NCBI RefSeq assembly: GCF_021531695.1 | Contig: NZ_JADYUI010000008.1 | Location: forward strand, 1-64,000 | Direction: 5' to 3' | DNA: 64,000 nucleotides | From: Roseburia hominis | GTDB taxonomy: Bacteria > Bacillota > Clostridia > Lachnospirales > Lachnospiraceae | Shown: piece after piece, positions 49,743-63,005 of the stretch | Numbering within the stretch: the first letter of the stretch is position 1 | Layout: each line of letters starts with the position of its first letter | Position numbers and translations under genes: made by a program | Notes under the pieces: model-generated | Told to the model about the DNA's origin: nothing | The model's database searches: none | The model's input: the letters and a program-made list of their open reading frames with translations, nothing else

Positions 49743-49765
49743 ATTTACTGATAAAACTGTATCAT

Positions 49766-49847
49766 TGCTAGGGGCGCTGATTGCTGAGAGATATTATTAT
49801 ATATCGACCCTTAATACTTGAACCGGGTAATACCGGCGTAAGGAAGC
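49766..49847 (+). ncRNA. TPP riboswitch aptamer (THI element)
   Basis: The conserved blocks of the thiamine pyrophosphate aptamer are present in order: TAGGGGCGCTGA, GCTGAGAGAT (the CUGAGA core), ACCCTTAATACTTGAACC and GGGTAATACCGGCGTAAGGAAG (the AACC...GGUAAUACC.GCGUAGGGA core). It lies directly before thiT. TPP binding should lower expression of the thiamine transporter. Confidence 0.95.
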
Positions 49848-49855
49848 ATTTTCGT

Positions 49856-49895
49856 ATCCTCCTGGCATATCGTACAGCACCAAGGAGGATTTTTT
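49856..49895 (+). terminator. Expression-platform hairpin that also pairs the thiT Shine-Dalgarno
   Basis: ATCCTCCT (49856-49863) pairs perfectly with AGGAGGAT (49883-49890), followed by five more T (49891-49895) and then the ATG. The right arm is the thiT ribosome binding site, so the hairpin can both end transcription and hide translation initiation. Confidence 0.8.
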
Positions 49896-53824: not shown

Positions 53825-54136
53825 TTAGGGTGTCAAAAGGTCGCAAGAAAATTTAATCTGTCATATTACACAAAGATGTAATTTGGTATTTGTGACTTAT
53901 GAAGGATATTAGATTTTCTTAATGTTCTGTAAACTATTCCAGCAACTCAGCAACAGGATGTTGATGAGAGCCCATGCTGAGCCATGGATGGCGAATCGTG
54001 GGCGGTTGCGGTCGTGATCCAATTACCTGCCAGAATATTTAGAAAATGTTATATCCGTAATTCGGAACAAATGACAAATTACATCTTTGTGTAATATGAC
54101 AAGCAAAAAATAGTTTGCGACCTTTTGACACCCTAA
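53825..54136. repeat. Terminal-inverted-repeat element, family 2 (312-bp copy)
   Basis: The ends are perfect 22-bp inverted repeats beginning TTAGGGTGTCAAAAGG. A second inverted pair lies inside (ATTACACAAAGATGTAATTT with AAATTACATCTTTGTGTAAT). There is no ORF. A second copy is at 61945-62458. TGTATAGGA occurs directly on both sides (53816-53824 and 54139-54147), though similar flanks at the other copy make a target duplication uncertain. Region 53704-53824 holds only AT-rich sequence upstream of mecA. Confidence 0.82.
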
Positions 54137-55453: not shown

Positions 55454-56386
55454 TTAATCAAGGAACAAAGCAGTAGAATAATAACGGTCACCACTGTCCG
55501 GGAGTAATGCTACAATCGTTTTTCCTTCATTTTCCGGACGTTTTGCTACTTCAAGCGCTGCATATAATGCTGCTCCGGAAGAAATTCCAACCAAAAATCC
55601 TTCGGTTGCTGCAATTTCTTTTCCAACTTCAAAGGCAGCATCATTTGAAACCTTAAACACTTCGTCATAAACTTCCGTATTCAATGTTTCCGGTACGAAA
55701 CCTGCACCAATTCCCTGAATCTTATGCGGTCCGCTTACGCCTTCGGAAAGAACCGGTGAGCTTTCCGGCTCAACAGCAATAACTTTTACATTTGGGTTCT
55801 GGGATTTTAAATATTCTCCGGTTCCGGTAATTGTTCCACCGGTACCAACACCTGCAATAAAGATATCCACTTTTCCGTCCGTATCTTTCCAGATTTCCGG
55901 TCCGGTCGTTTTTCTGTGAACTTCCGGGTTTGCAGGATTGTTGAACTGTCCCGGAATAAAACTGTTCGGGATTTCTTTACTGAGTTCTTCTGCCTTTGCA
56001 ATTGCACCTTTCATTCCTTTGGTTCCGTCTGTCAACACAATTTCTGCACCATAAGCTTTTAAAATATTACGACGTTCTACACTCATGGTCTCCGGCATGG
56101 TAAGAATTGCACGATATCCCTTTGCTGCTGCAATTGCCGCAAGACCAATTCCCGTATTGCCGGAAGTCGGCTCAATGATAACAGAGCCTTCTTTTAATAA
56201 TCCTTTTGCTTCCGCATCTTCAATCATTCCCTTTGCGATACGATCCTTAACACTTCCCGCCGGATTAAAATACTCTAACTTTGCAAGAATCGTTGCCTTT
56301 GTATTATGCTTTTTCTCGATATTAGTTACCTCCACCAATGGAGTGTTTCCGATTAATCCCAATGTTCCCTTATAAATGTTTGCCAT
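55454..56386 (-). CDS. cysK: Cysteine synthase (O-acetylserine sulfhydrylase)
   Basis: The 310-aa PLP enzyme has the family signature [19 protein letters not shown] (PLP Lys near 46), [19 protein letters not shown], the Gly-rich loop [16 protein letters not shown] and [12 protein letters not shown]. It makes cysteine from O-acetylserine and sulfide. It lies 32 bp downstream of metY, and the pair is preceded by a Cys-rich leader peptide, so cysteine-linked control of both is likely. Confidence 0.96.
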
Positions 56387-56418: not shown

Positions 56419-57729
56419 CTATTTTTGAACTGCTTTAAATGCTTCCTCTAAATCCTCAATAATATCATCAATGTGCTCTGTTCCGATTGATAAACGAATC
56501 GTATTCGGTTTGATTCCCTGCTCTAAAAGTTCCTCGTTGCTTAACTGTGAGTGTGTGGTTGATGCCGGATGAATCGCAAGTGATTTTACATCTGCAACAT
56601 TCGCAAGCAGTGAGAATATCTGCAAGTTATCAATAAAGTCTTTCGCTGTTCTGTCATCCCCTTTGATTTCAAAAGTAAAGATAGAACCTCCTCCGTTCGG
56701 GAAGTACTTTTTGTAAAGTGCCTGCTGTTCTTTATCCTCAGTTACGGATGGATGATGTACCTTCTCTACCTGCGGATGATTATTAAGATACTCAACTACC
56801 TTTAAGGCATTTTCCACATGACGCTCTACCCTTAACGATAATGTTTCCAATCCCTGCAGGAATAAGAAAGAGTGGAATGGAGAAATCGTTGCTCCGGTAT
56901 CTCTTAACAAAATTGCTCTGATTTTAGTCACAAATGCTGCCGGACCAACTGCTTTGGTAAAACTAATTCCATGATAACTTGGATTCGGTTCCGTAAGAGA
57001 TGGGAACTTGCCGGAAGCTTCCCAGTCAAATTTACCGCTGTCTACAATGACACCACCGATTGCTGTTCCATGACCACCGATAAATTTCGTTGCAGAGTGT
57101 ACCACAATGTCTGCCCCATATTCAATCGGGCGAAGCAGATATGGTGTCGCAAATGTGCTGTCTACGACCAATGGAATCTTATGTGCATGCGCAATCTTCG
57201 CCAATGCTTCAATGTCTGTCACCTCAGAATTCGGATTTCCGAGTGTTTCAACGTACAATGCCTTTGTATTATCCTGAATAGCTGCTTCAAATGCATCTAA
57301 ATCCAAAGGACTTACAAATGTTGTCTTGATTCCGTACTGTGAAAGTGTGTGCTCTAATAAATTATAAGTACCACCGTAAATATTATTGGCCGCAACAATA
57401 TGGTCGCCTGCCTGCGCCAGATTCTGAATCGTATATGTAATTGCTGCTGCGCCGGAAGCAACGGCAAGTGCTGCCACGCCACCCTCTAATGCTGCAATTC
57501 TTTTCTCAAACACGTCTTCCGTTGGATTCGTCAATCTTCCATAAATATTTCCCGCATCACTTAATCCAAATCTTGCTGCCGCATGATCGGAATTATGAAA
57601 TACATAAGATGATGTTGCATAAATCGGAACTGCTCTTGCGTCCGTAGCCGGATCTGCTTCTTCCTGACCAACGTGTAACTGTAATGTCTCAAATTTTAAA
57701 TTTCTATCTTCATATGCTGATTTACTCAT
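56419..57729 (-). CDS. metY: O-acetylhomoserine sulfhydrylase (MetY type)
   Basis: The 436-aa PLP enzyme belongs to the Cys/Met metabolism family: [32 protein letters not shown], the PLP Lys in [25 protein letters not shown] and [17 protein letters not shown]. Length and start fit O-acetylhomoserine aminocarboxypropyltransferase, which makes homocysteine from O-acetylhomoserine and sulfide. It is the first full gene of a metY-cysK unit, both using sulfide. The start follows AGGAG. Confidence 0.94.
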
Positions 57730-57802
57730 AGTTTTATTCTCCTATCTGTTTTTCAATGATATTTTCCTGTTCTCTCTATGTCTTTCATGTCTTTGTAACA
57801 GA

Positions 57803-57880
57803 TTATTCTGTGACAAGACAGCACATGCAACACATTCGATCATCCTTTATATCATTTTGCAATTGTTCTTTTTGTTTCAT
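57803..57880 (-). CDS. Cys-rich leader peptide upstream of metY-cysK
   Basis: A 25-codon frame beginning MKQKEQLQNDIKDD and ending RMCCMCCLVTE lies between a strong promoter and metY. It has an AGGAG eight bases before its ATG. Four Cys codons (TGT TGC, ATG, TGC TGT) cluster near its end, as in leader peptides that sense charged tRNA. The codons TGC TGT CTT are perfectly complementary to AAGACAGCA around the leader's own start. I infer translation-dependent control by cysteine supply. It is too short to be found by default ORF cut-offs. Confidence 0.75.
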   Translation of the reverse strand: MKQKEQLQNDIKDDRMCCMCCLVTE

Positions 57881-57940
57881 GCTGTCTTCTCCTTTTCCCT
57901 TATTTCATATTGAATAACTATGATTTCTCTTTTCAATTGT

Positions 57941-57969
57941 ATCTTAACTCACTATTCCTACTTTGTCAA
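57941..57969 (-). promoter_or_regulatory. Promoter of the leader-metY-cysK transcript
   Basis: On the minus strand TTGACA (57969-57964) and TAAGAT (57946-57941) are 17 bp apart, about 60 bp before the leader peptide ATG. The 341-bp gap between metY and the radical SAM gene holds this promoter, the leader and no other gene. Confidence 0.8.
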
Positions 57970-58070
57970 TAGGTTTATAGGGAAATATTTCTTTTTTTAT
58001 TTCATATTCTCATAAATTAAATTTCTATGTTATACTAAGCTCGGATTATTCACAATCGGAGGCGAATCTT

Positions 58071-58951: not shown

Positions 58952-60022
58952 TTATTCAATAATTCCACCGCAATACACATAATCATCTTTATAAAATACA
59001 GCTGCCTGTCCCGGTGTAATTGCCCGTTGCGGCTCTTTAAATGTCACCTTCAGCTTGTCCTCCCCGTATGGCTCCACAAGGCATGGTGCCCCTTTGTGAG
59101 CATAACGGATTTTTCCACAAAGTTCTACCGGCTCTTCAATCTTTTCCACAGCCATATAATTCACATGGTTGACAACCATGGTATCTGAAAATACGCTATC
59201 TGCCCCACCGATAACAACCTCATTTGTTTCCGGCCGTATCTCTTTTACAAAAGCCGGTGCTCCAAGAGAAAGATTCAGTCCCTTTCGCTGTCCGATAGTA
59301 TAATGCCAGATTCCTTTATGCGTACCGAGAATTTTACCGGATTCATCCACAAAATTCCCCGGAATTGGTTTCTCTCCGGTCTCCTCTTCCAAAAACTTCA
59401 CATAATCCCCATCCGGCACAAAACAAATATCCTGGCTGTCCGGTTTATGGGCGACCATAAGATTCGCCTCTTCCGCGATCTCGCGTACACGCGGCTTTTC
59501 ATAATCCCCGACCGGCATCAACGTATGTGCAAGCTGAAATTGTGTCAAATTGTAAAGTGCATAGGTCTGATCCTTTTCTTCTGTCACGGATTTCGCAATT
59601 GTATACCTGCCATTTGAAAGTTTCTTTATTCTCGCATAATGACCGGTCGCAATATAATCTGCACCGATTTCAAGGGAACGCTGCAATAAAGATTCCCATT
59701 TCACATACCGGTTACAGGCAATACAAGGATTCGGCGTCCTCGCATTTTTATATTCATTCACAAAATAATCAATGACCTTTTCCTTAAAGTCCTGCTTAAA
59801 ATTCATGACATAATAAGGAATTCCCAGTGTATTCGCAACACGCCTTGCATCATCAACTGCAGAAAGTCCGCAACATCCTCCGTTTTCTTCCTGCGAAACC
59901 TGGTCTTCATCCTGCCAGATCTGCATCGTGGCTCCGATTACATCATATCCCTGTTCTTTTAATAAATACGCTGCAACTGAAGAATCTACTCCGCCTGACA
60001 TTCCTACTACAACTTTACTCAT
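58952..60022 (-). CDS. mnmA: tRNA-specific 2-thiouridylase
   Basis: The 356-aa enzyme starts VVVGMSGGVDSSVAAYLLKEQGYDVIGATMQIW (PP-loop). It has the catalytic Cys in NPCIACNRYVKW (near 100) and the second in SQDICFVPDGDY (near 200). It makes 2-thiouridine at the wobble base of Lys, Glu and Gln tRNAs, using sulfur from a cysteine desulfurase. Its place just after nifU and nifS supports sulfur supply from that NifS. Confidence 0.97.
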   Translation of the reverse strand: MSKVVVGMSGGVDSSVAAYLLKEQGYDVIGATMQIWQDEDQVSQEENGGCCGLSAVDDARRVANTLGIPYYVMNFKQDFKEKVIDYFVNEYKNARTPNPCIACNRYVKWESLLQRSLEIGADYIATGHYARIKKLSNGRYTIAKSVTEEKDQTYALYNLTQFQLAHTLMPVGDYEKPRVREIAEEANLMVAHKPDSQDICFVPDGDYVKFLEEETGEKPIPGNFVDESGKILGTHKGIWHYTIGQRKGLNLSLGAPAFVKEIRPETNEVVIGGADSVFSDTMVVNHVNYMAVEKIEEPVELCGKIRYAHKGAPCLVEPYGEDKLKVTFKEPQRAITPGQAAVFYKDDYVYCGGIIE

Positions 60023-60033
60023 TCTTTTCCATC

Positions 60034-60477
60034 CTAATATACTTCTTGTGGTGCTTCTTCTTTTTCACCAATATCATTCACCGGCTGCTCCAAGCCATCA
60101 ATCGTGATATTATGCTTTGTTGCATAATCCCATAAAGCCGCATGAATGGCTTCCTCCGCAAGCAGGGAACAGTGTACCTTGACCGGTGGAAGTCCGTCCA
60201 ACGCTTCCATTACTGCTTTGTTCGTAACGTTAAGCGCTTCCTGTACGGTCTTACCCTTTACAAGCTCTGTTGCCATACTGCTGGTTGCAACGGCTGCACC
60301 ACAGCCAAATGTTTTAAATTTTGCTTCTTTAATAACCTGATTTTCATCAATATCAAGATACATTCTCATAATGTCACCGCACTTTGCATTTCCGACTGTG
60401 CCGACACCACTCGGATTCTCAATCTCTCCTACATTTCTCGGGTTATTAAAATGATCCATTACTTTTTCACTATACAT
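60034..60477 (-). CDS. NifU/IscU-type Fe-S cluster scaffold
   Basis: The 147-aa protein starts MYSEKVMDHFNNPRNVGEIENPSG and has the three cluster-ligand cysteines: GNAKCGDIM, FKTFGCGAAVATSS and VKVHCSLLAEEAI. It is the N-terminal NifU/IscU domain alone with a short acidic tail. It receives sulfur from NifS for cluster building. The ATG at 60477 follows AGGAGG. A Met twelve codons upstream is rejected. A hairpin repeat sits in the leader upstream. Confidence 0.94.
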   Translation of the reverse strand: MYSEKVMDHFNNPRNVGEIENPSGVGTVGNAKCGDIMRMYLDIDENQVIKEAKFKTFGCGAAVATSSMATELVKGKTVQEALNVTNKAVMEALDGLPPVKVHCSLLAEEAIHAALWDYATKHNITIDGLEQPVNDIGEKEEAPQEVY

Positions 60478-60496
60478 AAAACATTCCTCCTGCCAT

Positions 60497-60537
60497 AAAG
60501 CGAACATTTGCAATCCGCTTCGCTATTTGCTCATGAA
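60497..60537 (-). repeat. 41-bp 5'-leader repeat with hairpin (copy 2)
   Basis: This copy differs at three positions from 52441-52481. The stem AAGCGGA/TTCGCTT keeps pairing through a G-U pair. It lies 20 bp before the nifU start codon, the same place as copy 1 relative to its gene. Confidence 0.7.
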
Positions 60538-60639
60538 GGTGTTTTCACACCATTATAAAATATTTTTTTTAATTTCTCAAGTTGTCTATACAATGTTCCA
60601 TAACTAATCTGCTTTTAAAACATCACGCTGTCATTTTTC

Positions 60640-61824
60640 TTATGCACTCTGCTTTTTCACAAAATCTTCGTACAACGGAGACATACTGCGCAAACGCTCA
60701 ATTATTTTCTTAAGTTCATCTACCGTATAATCAATCTCTTCTTTGGTTGTTTTCTCCGATAACGTCACTCGCAACGAACCATGTGCAATCTCATGCGGCA
60801 GACCGATTGCCAAAAGTACATGAGACGGATCTAAAGAACCGGATGTGCAGGCCGAACCGCTCGAAGCGCAGATTCCTTTCTGGTCAAGTAAAATTAGCAT
60901 CGATTCGCCTTCAATAAAGCGGAAGCAGAAATTCGTATTATTCGGCAAACGGGATGTCCGGTCCCCATTTAATTTTGCATATGGAATCTCCGTTTCCACA
61001 CGATGAATATAATAATCACGAAGCTCTGTCTCATACTTTATGCGTTCTTCCAAATGTGCACTTGCAAGCTCTACTGCCTTTGCAAAACCTACGATACCGG
61101 GTACATTATGCGTTCCTGCACGTCTGTGACGTTCCTGTGCCCCACCGTGAATAAAGGAACCGAGTTTTAATCCCTTTCTGATATACATAAGACCGATTCC
61201 TTTTGGTCCGTTAATCTTATGCCCACTGGCACTTAACATATCAATATTCATTTTCTCGACATCGATTGGTACATGTCCAAATGCCTGAACCGCGTCTGTA
61301 TGGAACAATACACCATGTTCTTTTGCAATTTTACCAATCTCTGCAATCGGCTCAATCGTTCCTATTTCATTATTTGCAAACATAACCGAAATTAAAATCG
61401 TATCCGGGCGGATTGCTTTTTCCACTTCTTCCGGATTCACGAGACCATTCTCATCCACATCCAGATATGTCACTTCAAATCCCTGCTTTTCCAGATATTC
61501 ACAGGTGTGCAAAATCGCATGATGCTCAATCTTTGAAGTAATAATGTGTTTTCCCTTGCTCTTATACGCCTCTGCCGTCGCTTTTAACGCCCAGTTATCT
61601 GATTCACTTCCTCCACCGGTAAAATAAATCTCCTCCGATGTTGCATGCAAAAAATCTGCAATTGTCTGTCTTGCCTCATCTACTGCCTTCTTGCTCTCAC
61701 CTGCAAACGAATAGATGCTGGATGGATTTCCGTAATATTCCGTAAAATAAGGTTCCATTGCTTTTAACACTTCCGGATATACCTGTGTAGTTGCTGCATT
61801 ATCTAAATAAATGAACTTACTCAT
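60640..61824 (-). CDS. nifS: Cysteine desulfurase (NifS/IscS type)
   Basis: The 394-aa PLP enzyme has IYLDNAATTQVYPEVL, the PLP Lys in SASGHKINGPKGIG (near 205) and the active-site Cys in GICASSGSACTSGSLDPSHVL (near 330), a NifS/IscS-like long loop. It gives persulfide sulfur to NifU and MnmA, encoded downstream. The start follows AAGGAAG. A family-2 repeat with a nested insertion separates it from iscR. Confidence 0.95.
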   Translation of the reverse strand: MSKFIYLDNAATTQVYPEVLKAMEPYFTEYYGNPSSIYSFAGESKKAVDEARQTIADFLHATSEEIYFTGGGSESDNWALKATAEAYKSKGKHIITSKIEHHAILHTCEYLEKQGFEVTYLDVDENGLVNPEEVEKAIRPDTILISVMFANNEIGTIEPIAEIGKIAKEHGVLFHTDAVQAFGHVPIDVEKMNIDMLSASGHKINGPKGIGLMYIRKGLKLGSFIHGGAQERHRRAGTHNVPGIVGFAKAVELASAHLEERIKYETELRDYYIHRVETEIPYAKLNGDRTSRLPNNTNFCFRFIEGESMLILLDQKGICASSGSACTSGSLDPSHVLLAIGLPHEIAHGSLRVTLSEKTTKEEIDYTVDELKKIIERLRSMSPLYEDFVKKQSA

Positions 61825-61944: not shown

Positions 61945-62458
61945 ATTCGGGTGTCAAAAGGTCGCAAGAAAATTTAAGCTGTCATATTGCACAAAGATGT
62001 AATTTGCTATTTGTGACTTATGAAGGATATTAGATTTTCTTTATGTTCTGTAAACTACTCCAGCAACTCAGCAACAGGATGTTGATGAGAGCCCATGCTG
62101 AGCCATGGATGGCGAATCTTGGGCGGTTGCGGCCGTGATTCAAACACCTGCCAGAACATTTTAGCCCGAATTATTCACAGCCACCACACAAACAAGCCAC
62201 AGACCAGCTACGCAATGCGTATCTGTCGCTGCTTCACAGCTTCTGTCTGAGGCTGTGTGGTGGGTGAATTCTATTCTCCAACCAAGTGAAATCATAAATT
62301 CGGCTTACAAGCAAGCTTGCCGCACGAATTACAGATTTCACTTGGCTGCTGTGAATAATTCGGGTTGAGAAAATGTTATATCCGTAATTCGGAACAAATG
62401 ACAAATTACATCTTTGTGCAATATAACAAAAATTAGTTTGCGACCTTTTGACCCCGAA
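61945..62458. repeat. Terminal-inverted-repeat element, family 2 (514-bp copy, interrupted)
   Basis: It starts TTCGGGTGTCAAAAGGTCGC and ends with the inverted GCGACCTTTTGACCCCGAA, with one base lost near the right end. Apart from a 200-bp insertion at about 62165-62364 it is nearly identical to 53825-54136. It fills most of the 699-bp gap between nifS and iscR. There is no real ORF. The rest of the gap is AT-rich, with no clear promoter. Confidence 0.82.
62165..62364. repeat. Family-3 element nested inside the family-2 copy
   Basis: The CCCGAATTATTCAC terminus at 62165 is inverted at 62351-62364. The right half matches 23290-23379. The left half adds a second hairpin (CAGCCACCACAC ... GTGTGGTGGG). 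Comparison with 53825-54136 shows the uninterrupted sequence ATTTAGAAAATG at the insertion point. Confidence 0.82.
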
Positions 62459-62523: not shown

Positions 62524-62958
62524 CTAAATAACATATTGTCCTTTTCCCTGCATTTTCCATGATACTAAATCAGCAAGTGTAATTCCATCTACTACTTCAT
62601 TAATTGCATCATTAATCTTCCGATAAACAATAACCGACACGCAATCGTCCACATGTTCACACGAAACCTCACCATCTTCCAGGCAGGACACCGGTGCAAG
62701 ACTTCCTTCGGTCAGACGTAAAATCATCCCAACCGTATATTCCTCCGGCTTCTTACGCAGGCTGTATCCACCTTGCGCCCCACGGACACTCTTCACATAA
62801 CCGGCTTTATTTAAAACGGAAATGATCTGCTCCAGATACTTATCTGATATATTTTCTCTCTTGGCAATATCCTTTAAACTGATAGGCTCTCCTGTATTAT
62901 TTACTGCAAGATCAAGCATAAGACGCAAAGCATATCTTCCCTTGGTAGAAATCTTCAT
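62524..62958 (-). CDS. iscR: Rrf2-family regulator, IscR-like
   Basis: The 144-aa winged-helix protein begins MKISTKGRYALRLMLDLAVN and has the Rrf2 helix ISLKDIAKRENISDKYLEQIISVLNKAGYVKSVRGAQGGY. Three cysteines in VSCLEDGEVSCEHVDDC match the Fe-S ligand positions of IscR. It probably senses Fe-S status and controls nifS and nifU downstream. I chose the second ATG (62958), nine bases from AGAGG. The first is too close. A strong promoter lies upstream. Confidence 0.92.
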   Translation of the reverse strand: MKISTKGRYALRLMLDLAVNNTGEPISLKDIAKRENISDKYLEQIISVLNKAGYVKSVRGAQGGYSLRKKPEEYTVGMILRLTEGSLAPVSCLEDGEVSCEHVDDCVSVIVYRKINDAINEVVDGITLADLVSWKMQGKGQYVI

Positions 62959-63005
62959 TCTCGTCATCCTCTCTTCTTCGTATTGTACAAAGTTTTTGTT
63001 CTCTT

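Follow-up and report, generated by a model that had tools for sequence, protein, structure and literature searches.

A divergent member of a Clostridia leader-peptide family upstream of metY and a possible role in translation attenuation at CGA-Met-Cys codons

The window, a stretch of 64,000 nucleotides of a Roseburia hominis contig, carries on its reverse strand the sulphur amino-acid genes metY and cysK, followed by pta as the third gene of the row (TIGR00651, 368 bits). An unannotated ORF of 25 codons lies directly upstream of metY. A sequence-only reading had proposed that this ORF encodes a leader peptide with a CCMCC run, preceded by a good promoter and ribosome binding site, and that the genes behind it are controlled by amino-acid attenuation with cysteine as the signal. 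The features of the locus, some of which are also found in a second genome of the genus (the congener), are the following.

56419..57729, reverse strand: metY, O-acetylhomoserine/O-acetylserine sulfhydrylase (TIGR01326, 641 bits; Pfam Cys_Met_Meta_PP)
55454..56386, reverse strand: cysK, cysteine synthase A (TIGR01139, 462 bits)
57803-57880, reverse strand: unannotated leader ORF, 25 codons, MKQKEQLQNDIKDDRMCCMCCLVTE and a stop; ATG start, led by a Shine-Dalgarno (SD) sequence, same ORF in the congener
57889..57893, reverse strand: leader Shine-Dalgarno AGGAG, 8 nt before the leader ATG, read from the sequence
57833..57838, reverse strand: CGA-ATG (Arg15-Met16), the core common to the family, from the sequence and the family comparison
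57818..57832, reverse strand: TGT TGC ATG TGC TGT (Cys17-Cys18-Met19-Cys20-Cys21), from the sequence
57969-57941, reverse strand: promoter-like TTGACA-17-TAAGAT, 10/12 matches, from the promoter scan
57789..57819, reverse strand: possible imperfect hairpin GTCTTGTCACAGA / TCTGTTACAAAGAC across the leader stop, seen by eye in both genomes
57704..57747, reverse strand: SD, start and first codons of metY, predicted best partner of the leader Cys-codon region (-18.0 kcal/mol)

To evaluate how often such an ORF arises by chance, we took the 330 nt upstream of metY and generated 20,000 dinucleotide shuffles. SD-led ATG ORFs of 8-50 codons were common when no Cys condition was imposed (5,943 shuffles), but none of the shuffles had one with four Cys in five codons. 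The SD-led leader with its CCMCC run is therefore real, and the proposal that its Cys density is far above expectation holds. The same can be said of its location before sulphur amino-acid genes, given the matches of metY and cysK to TIGR01326 and TIGR01139. The proposed expression signals fared unevenly: AGGAG stands 8 nt before the ATG, whereas the promoter-like site, 60 nt further up from it, is weak evidence when taken alone because the scan total was near the chance rate (5 sites found, 4.2 expected). The gap before metY matched no Rfam family at or above the gathering score, and thus no T-box, SAM or other riboswitch, in line with the sequence-only reading; the leader peptide itself had no match in NCBIfam or Pfam. 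When we looked for the features of a classical amino-acid transcription attenuator, we found the clustered regulatory codons (CCMCC) and no intrinsic terminator between leader and gene. Between 57300 and 58400 there were no terminator-like sites on the leader strand (-), both sites found being on the + strand, and the candidate hairpin at the leader stop is not followed by a U-run, as read by eye. The leader stop is 73 nt away from the metY ATG.

The surroundings of these genes are also related to sulphur. MnmA, NifU, the cysteine desulfurase NifS and an Rrf2 regulator make up a sulphur and tRNA-thiolation neighbourhood (58952-61824 and 62524-62967, reverse strand). The best NCBIfam match of this regulator is CymR, with 138 bits, under the cut-off of 195. 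At two other loci (L031, L033) the gene next upstream of metY ends, by eye, like an Rrf2/CymR-type regulator, and other members of the family also have TAGGAA ahead of metY. The stretch around the -35 box, CCTATTGACAAAGTAGGAATA (57941-57975, reverse strand), is possibly a CymR-type operator, in which case transcriptional control of metY may act alongside that by the leader. Two TwoAYGGAY RNAs (RF01731), about 8 kb apart on the forward strand (53897-54063, 115 bits; 62018-62183, 81 bits), flank the metY-cysK-pta and nifS-nifU genes and are on the opposite strand to both. A TPP riboswitch is found at 49760-49861, also on the forward strand (Rfam RF00059, 67 bits).

The congener set consisted of one other genome of the genus (G001, locus L007), which has MKNMNQTYHYIAKDDRMCCCMGCLFTESNLLER at the same place before metY and behind the same SD. 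Both the SD region of the leader (AAGGAGAAGACAGCATG) and the promoter-like stretch CCTATTGACAAAGTAGGAATA are identical in the two genomes. Within the shared reading frame, the leaders differ by two 3-nt indels, and a 2-nt indel after the GAA codon shifts the leader stop. Their peptides have KDDRM-C-C in common, but not the exact CCMCC.

We then analysed the bacterial family at large. The gene metY was found in 199 of 200 genomes, and we examined the upstream DNA of the best 90 by score, of which one (L027) was dropped for having less than 200 nt. Among the 89 remaining regions, 13, including that of the window, have a short SD-led ORF with an in-frame CGA-ATG-TG[ACT] or CGA-TGY-TGY, and 76 lack this core. 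Over 60 rounds of shuffling, the 89 regions had on average 0.07 such ORFs and never more than 1; the same test gave 1 with the five other Arg codons together and 0 on the reverse strand. The peptides of these 13 leaders vary widely (LLRENYRNGRMCCCCM, HYLSEGNRMCCCCWK, ACFKRMCCQE, LNFKRCCSQF, FIREERMC, LSRNRM and others). Hence, the leader is conserved in relatives, both in the congener and, by its core, in these 13 regions, and the search of Lachnospiraceae metY 5' regions that had been suggested does recover recurrent short leader ORFs, but the Cys cluster that it was meant to follow is not what the family conserves. A search for Cys conservation only, which took the first 30 metY loci and asked for at least two C.?C pairs, recovered no leaders besides those of the window and the congener, and was abandoned. 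So were the generic RMCC patterns MGNATGTGYTGY (two genomes of the genus) and GGNMGNATGTGYTGY (397 genomes of the family), whose matches were mostly background, L158 being a true leader.

A context-blind DNA pattern for N-[FY]-R-x-G-R-M-C-C, allowing any AGN or CGN for Arg, was run over 84,980 genomes and matched 105 stretches, or 106 places by count. Leader-type ORFs account for 98 of these places (89 with a strict SD-like 4-mer) and background for 8; a locus with a metY-like motif by chance (L204) was classed as background. The genes behind the 98 leaders are metY in 85 cases, metQ-like in nine and other genes in two (L196, an ECF transporter S component by Pfam, and L229), the last two leaders being at contig ends. 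The host titles, listed for 80 of the 105 stretches, are almost all from Clostridia, plus Erysipelatoclostridium, and the records from a cyanobacterium, Pantoea and Ignavibacterium are among the background places. Smaller samples gave a compatible picture. Among 391 genomes sampled from the class, 15, spread over eight families, have the CGA form with one Cys; all 15 places were short ORFs before metY, and the reversed pattern had no match. An order-wide sample of 392 genomes contained three that matched the pattern, two of them with true leaders. One of the metQ-like proteins behind leaders matches the Pfam NlpA lipoprotein model with 276 bits and the NCBIfam MetQ/NlpA models below their cut-offs. 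The MetQ-like protein of L191 is matched by the NlpA profile in two stretches, and its N-terminal part (residues 43-180) aligns with the C-terminal part of the profile (positions 98-235), as might be expected of a circularly permuted MetQ. Rfam had no match at the leaders of 19 other loci and NCBIfam none for three canonical leaders. We found no description of this leader family in the literature, most subscription journals being outside the scope of the search.

The window leader is a divergent member of this Clostridia family. It is a short SD-led ORF directly upstream of metY, with an in-frame CGA-ATG-TGY (GAT CGA ATG TGT TGC at the core), and we call it divergent, not canonical, because NDIKDDRM takes the place of N[FY]R.G. 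Other variants exist. In L177 the segment NFRCGRMCCSCSNS is tandemly duplicated in frame within the leader before metY. Four loci (L045, L046, L037, L056) have leaders of a second look before metY, MRVI...N..(V/I)YDVMCC or ...REERMC, and one leader of this look ends in LERM with CGA ATG TGA. The VIYDVMCC type is rare, with 3 of 397 family genomes, of which two had already been seen before metY; the third (L317) has no evident SD-led leader before metY.

What defines the core of the family is F..L[LV]R.N[FY]R.G-Arg-Met, with either Cys or a stop next, and not a Cys run; classical members read F..L[LV]R.N[FY]R[FN]G-R-M before their Cys codons or stop. We searched 191 genomes of the class with a pattern devoid of any Cys condition and found 15 places, of which 14 are leaders (the reversed pattern matched in 2 genomes). 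Thirteen precede metY and one a gene that is metQ-like by its N-terminus. The codon after GRM encodes Cys in seven of these leaders and Gln in one, and it is a stop in six (four TGA and two TAA). Even when Cys follows Met, the run is often broken, as in GRMCHC, GRMCRF, GRMCWRQ and GRMCYML. Runs of 2-5 Cys are found in 75 of 78 canonical leaders, most of which were identified by a pattern asking for two Cys. The N, R and G of the core were similarly fixed by the search pattern, which left their synonymous codons free. Yet several positions that the pattern did not require are conserved among 85 distinct leaders: Arg at -2 (before Asn) is found in 84, written with six different codons, Leu at -4 in 74% and Phe at -7 in 65%. 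At the positions left free by the pattern, selection acts at the level of the peptide.

At one position, the codon itself is invariant. After dropping near-identical leaders (same first 12-14 residues), the key Arg before Met is encoded by CGA in 78 of 78 distinct leaders, even if the pattern allowed any AGN or CGN, and in 69 of 69 when only strict-SD leaders are counted. Elsewhere in the same leaders, CGA makes up 18 of 196 upstream Arg codons, and in the genes behind them 2.8% of 1070. The corresponding Arg codons at the background places of the same searches were AGC, AGT, AGG, AGT, CGA, AGA, CGT, CGA and CGA. Later Arg codons of the leaders are CGA in 10 of 15 cases before Cys and in 3 of 17 before a stop. 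CGA is thus preferred when a Met or Cys codon follows. Two loci (L030 and L078) have CGA directly before Cys, as CGA TGT TGC. The invariant Met after CGA is not independent evidence, because it was partly a search condition in the canonical patterns. A Salmonella his-leader assay ranks CGA among the slowly read codons (PMC4046918).

Leader ends may act by pairing with the gene behind them. Since the thermodynamic folding of single leaders gave mixed z-scores, we compared the pairing of leader ends with their own and with reassorted initiation regions. In 83 distinct leaders (near-identical ones and two loci with too short a gap having been dropped), the mean duplex energy was -12.87 with own targets and -11.11 (sd 0.25) with reassorted ones, and 0 of 20,000 reassortments did as well; when the arm was instead taken from the leader start, as a control, 7,088 of 20,000 did. 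The removal of 21 near-duplicates left 62 cluster representatives with similar values (-12.92 and -11.32; 0 of 20,000). A first version of the test, with the Cys codons alone as the arm, was weaker (13 of 20,000). This average signal is carried by a subset of the loci. Individually, 19 of 60 reach a shuffle p <= 0.05 (median p 0.25); among 60 representatives, 37 pair more strongly with their own target than with the others on average (2/3, 5/8 and 30/49 by subgroup). The pairing arm covers the SD and start in L158, L175 and L180. At other loci it falls immediately before the SD, where a CACAT element is complementary to ATGTG; of 64 intergenic stretches, 14 contain CACAT, compared with 3.7 in mononucleotide shuffles. 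When a ribosome was simulated on CGA-ATG-Cys, the predicted openness from SD to start rose from 0.427 to 0.522, with increases at 51 and decreases at 12 of the 83 loci; placing it on the leader start gave 0.453. On average, these models support translation attenuation in the family, where a pause at the leader end would free the metY start.

The window's leader is predicted to pair strongly with its own metY start, one of 62 foreign targets being equally good, but the duplex has a shuffle p of 0.15. Its helix is not conserved in the congener, whose leader pairs at least as well with 43 of 62 foreign targets, and its ensemble is unchanged by a parked ribosome (openness 0.62 and 0.62). For the window's own leader, the mechanism is extrapolated from the rest of the family and should be read as such.

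Starting from the family, its association with particular genes, the CGA constraint, the conserved peptide and the average complementarity between leader ends and targets, we infer the pause, its signal and the direction of control in the following model. The leader would be translated and the ribosome would pause around CGA-Met-Cys when Met- or Cys-tRNA is scarce, at a spot that would also be slow owing to CGA and the nascent peptide. The paused ribosome would cover the last leader codons, which could otherwise pair with the translation-initiation region of the gene behind; this region would then be freed and the gene translated. When sulphur amino acids suffice, the ribosome would leave, the helix would close and the expression of the gene would go down. 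The leader thus probably turns metY on when sulphur amino acids run short. The nature of the targets, metY and metQ-like genes, favours sulphur amino acids as the signal. The original proposal of amino-acid attenuation was right about a leader-type ORF, but attenuation of the classical, terminator-based kind is unsupported and the RNA pairing points to control of metY translation; likewise, the Cys codons are present, but methionine, given the metY and metQ-like targets, is as much part of the signal as cysteine. Overall, we favour the view that the window ORF belongs, as a divergent member, to a family of regulatory leaders working by translation attenuation at CGA-Met-Cys, and find it reasonably likely to be correct.

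The conservation of the peptide speaks for some contribution of the nascent chain, and perhaps for a different mechanism, in which the nascent F..LLR.N[FY]R.GRM itself stalls the ribosome in response to a small molecule (methionine, SAM or cysteine). Met-tRNA would then occupy the P site and a Cys codon or a stop the A site, and Cys codons would only tune the response. TnaC, for example, stalls the ribosome in answer to tryptophan. Such an arrest would account for amino-acid conservation that extends far past the sensed codons (Arg at -2 in 84 of 85, Leu at -4 in 74%, Phe at -7 in 65%) and for the 6 of 14 leaders that stop right after GRM (four TGA, two TAA). Yet the window leader, and those with KDDRMCC, FKRMCC, SRNRM or LKRCC, retain CGA-ATG or CGA-Cys without most of the motif, and Cys runs of up to five residues call for something more than arrest by a ligand. 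We see this mechanism as possible but not likely. These runs, in 75 of 78 canonical leaders, and the CCMCC of the window are what one would expect of a plain cysteine attenuator, in which nothing but the Cys codons counts and the remaining residues are neutral. It would be hard to reconcile with leaders lacking Cys after Met (six with a stop and one with Gln among 14), and it leaves unexplained both CGA in 78 of 78 leaders and the conserved peptide, which makes it very unlikely.

The conserved stretch could also be an RNA element (CGAAUGUG and a partner) where the reading of codons is incidental. In agreement with this, CGAATGTG is common even to leaders with TGA after Met, and 14 of 64 intergenic stretches contain CACAT, where mononucleotide shuffles have 3.7. 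But the conserved residues show synonymous changes, with six codons for the Arg at -2, the SD and start are in frame, and CGA is also found directly before Cys (L030, L078) and in 10 of 15 later Arg codons before Cys, which a fixed string would not give. We regard this explanation as highly improbable. We give practically no credence to the possibility that the ORF is a short functionless one with a Cys cluster by chance: the absence of the core from 76 of 89 family metY upstream regions would fit it, but the outcome of 0 in 20,000 shuffles, the conservation in the congener and the recurrence in the family do not.

Within translation attenuation at CGA-Met-Cys, the invariant CGA might itself gauge sulphur: the thiolation of tRNA-Arg(ICG) would set the reading of CGA, and the Met and Cys codons would be a second sensor. 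In Escherichia coli, the s2C32 form of this tRNA cannot read CGA and the unmodified form can, according to a published report (PMC5372741). If C32 is thiolated in these bacteria, the reading of CGA by the leader ribosome would report on sulphur supply. The preference for CGA exactly where a Met or Cys codon comes next fits this idea, and C32 is present in the four tRNA-Arg(ACG) genes that we identified, in three relatives; none was seen in the fragmented assembly of the window's own genome. This genome encodes two TtcA-like PP-loop proteins (L269, 1465-2241, reverse strand; L270, 1159-2343, forward strand), with about 210 bits each against a TtcA cut-off of 272, one of them with an N-terminal rhodanese-like domain. 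We also considered m2A37 as a second modification needed for CGA and rejected it, as all four tRNA-Arg(ACG) loops have G37. On the whole, a sulphur gauge of this kind seems rather doubtful.

If our interpretation is true, metY and metQ are under leader-peptide control in a broad set of gut and rumen Clostridia. This would be a type of control unnamed in the libraries searched, in a group for which textbooks would point to riboswitches and T-boxes; in Firmicutes, T-boxes are the rule. The use of CGA in 78 of 78 leaders at one place, and in around 3% of cases elsewhere, is a rare clean case of selection on the identity of a codon and not on the amino acid. It would also offer a route to a direct test of tRNA thiolation as a bacterial sulphur sensor.

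Several known systems resemble parts of this one. Translation attenuation of the ermC type answers antibiotic stalling, and the likeness is that a pause in the leader ORF would open a helix over the start of the next gene. Unlike in ermC, the pause site would be made of Met and Cys codons behind CGA, and the helix arms differ between species. The arrest peptides TnaC and SpeFL have a conserved nascent peptide near the pause site, and several leaders of our family stop right after the motif, but no known arrest motif was recognised here and, to our knowledge, an invariant rare CGA codon is not a feature of these peptides. Arabidopsis CGS1 undergoes SAM-induced nascent-chain arrest, so that a nascent peptide controls an enzyme from the Cys/Met PLP family to which MetY also belongs. 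Its peptide is inside the reading frame of the enzyme itself, in a plant, and has no visible sequence likeness to the leaders described here.

Among Firmicutes, histidine leader peptides of Bacilli are a leader-peptide system that works by terminator-based attenuation with a His run (PMC2965389); the present leaders have neither a terminator nor a simple run. Translation attenuation with a masked Shine-Dalgarno is described in general terms in another publication (PMC13236596). The latter cites what is the closest published system that we found by name, the poly-cysteine uORFs of mycobacteria (Canestrari et al. 2020, doi 10.1111/mmi.14498), as a case of cysteine-responsive translation attenuation. 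As far as this citation goes, the two systems share a short Cys-rich ORF upstream of sulphur amino-acid genes. The mycobacterial uORFs are leaderless and poly-Cys, as stated in the title, whereas the window ORF has the SD AGGAG and a promoter-like site upstream, and its family is SD-led, with CGA-Met-Cys or CGA-Met-stop in a conserved peptide. The targets, metY and metQ-like genes, and the Clostridia hosts further distinguish this family from the mycobacterial system as cited.
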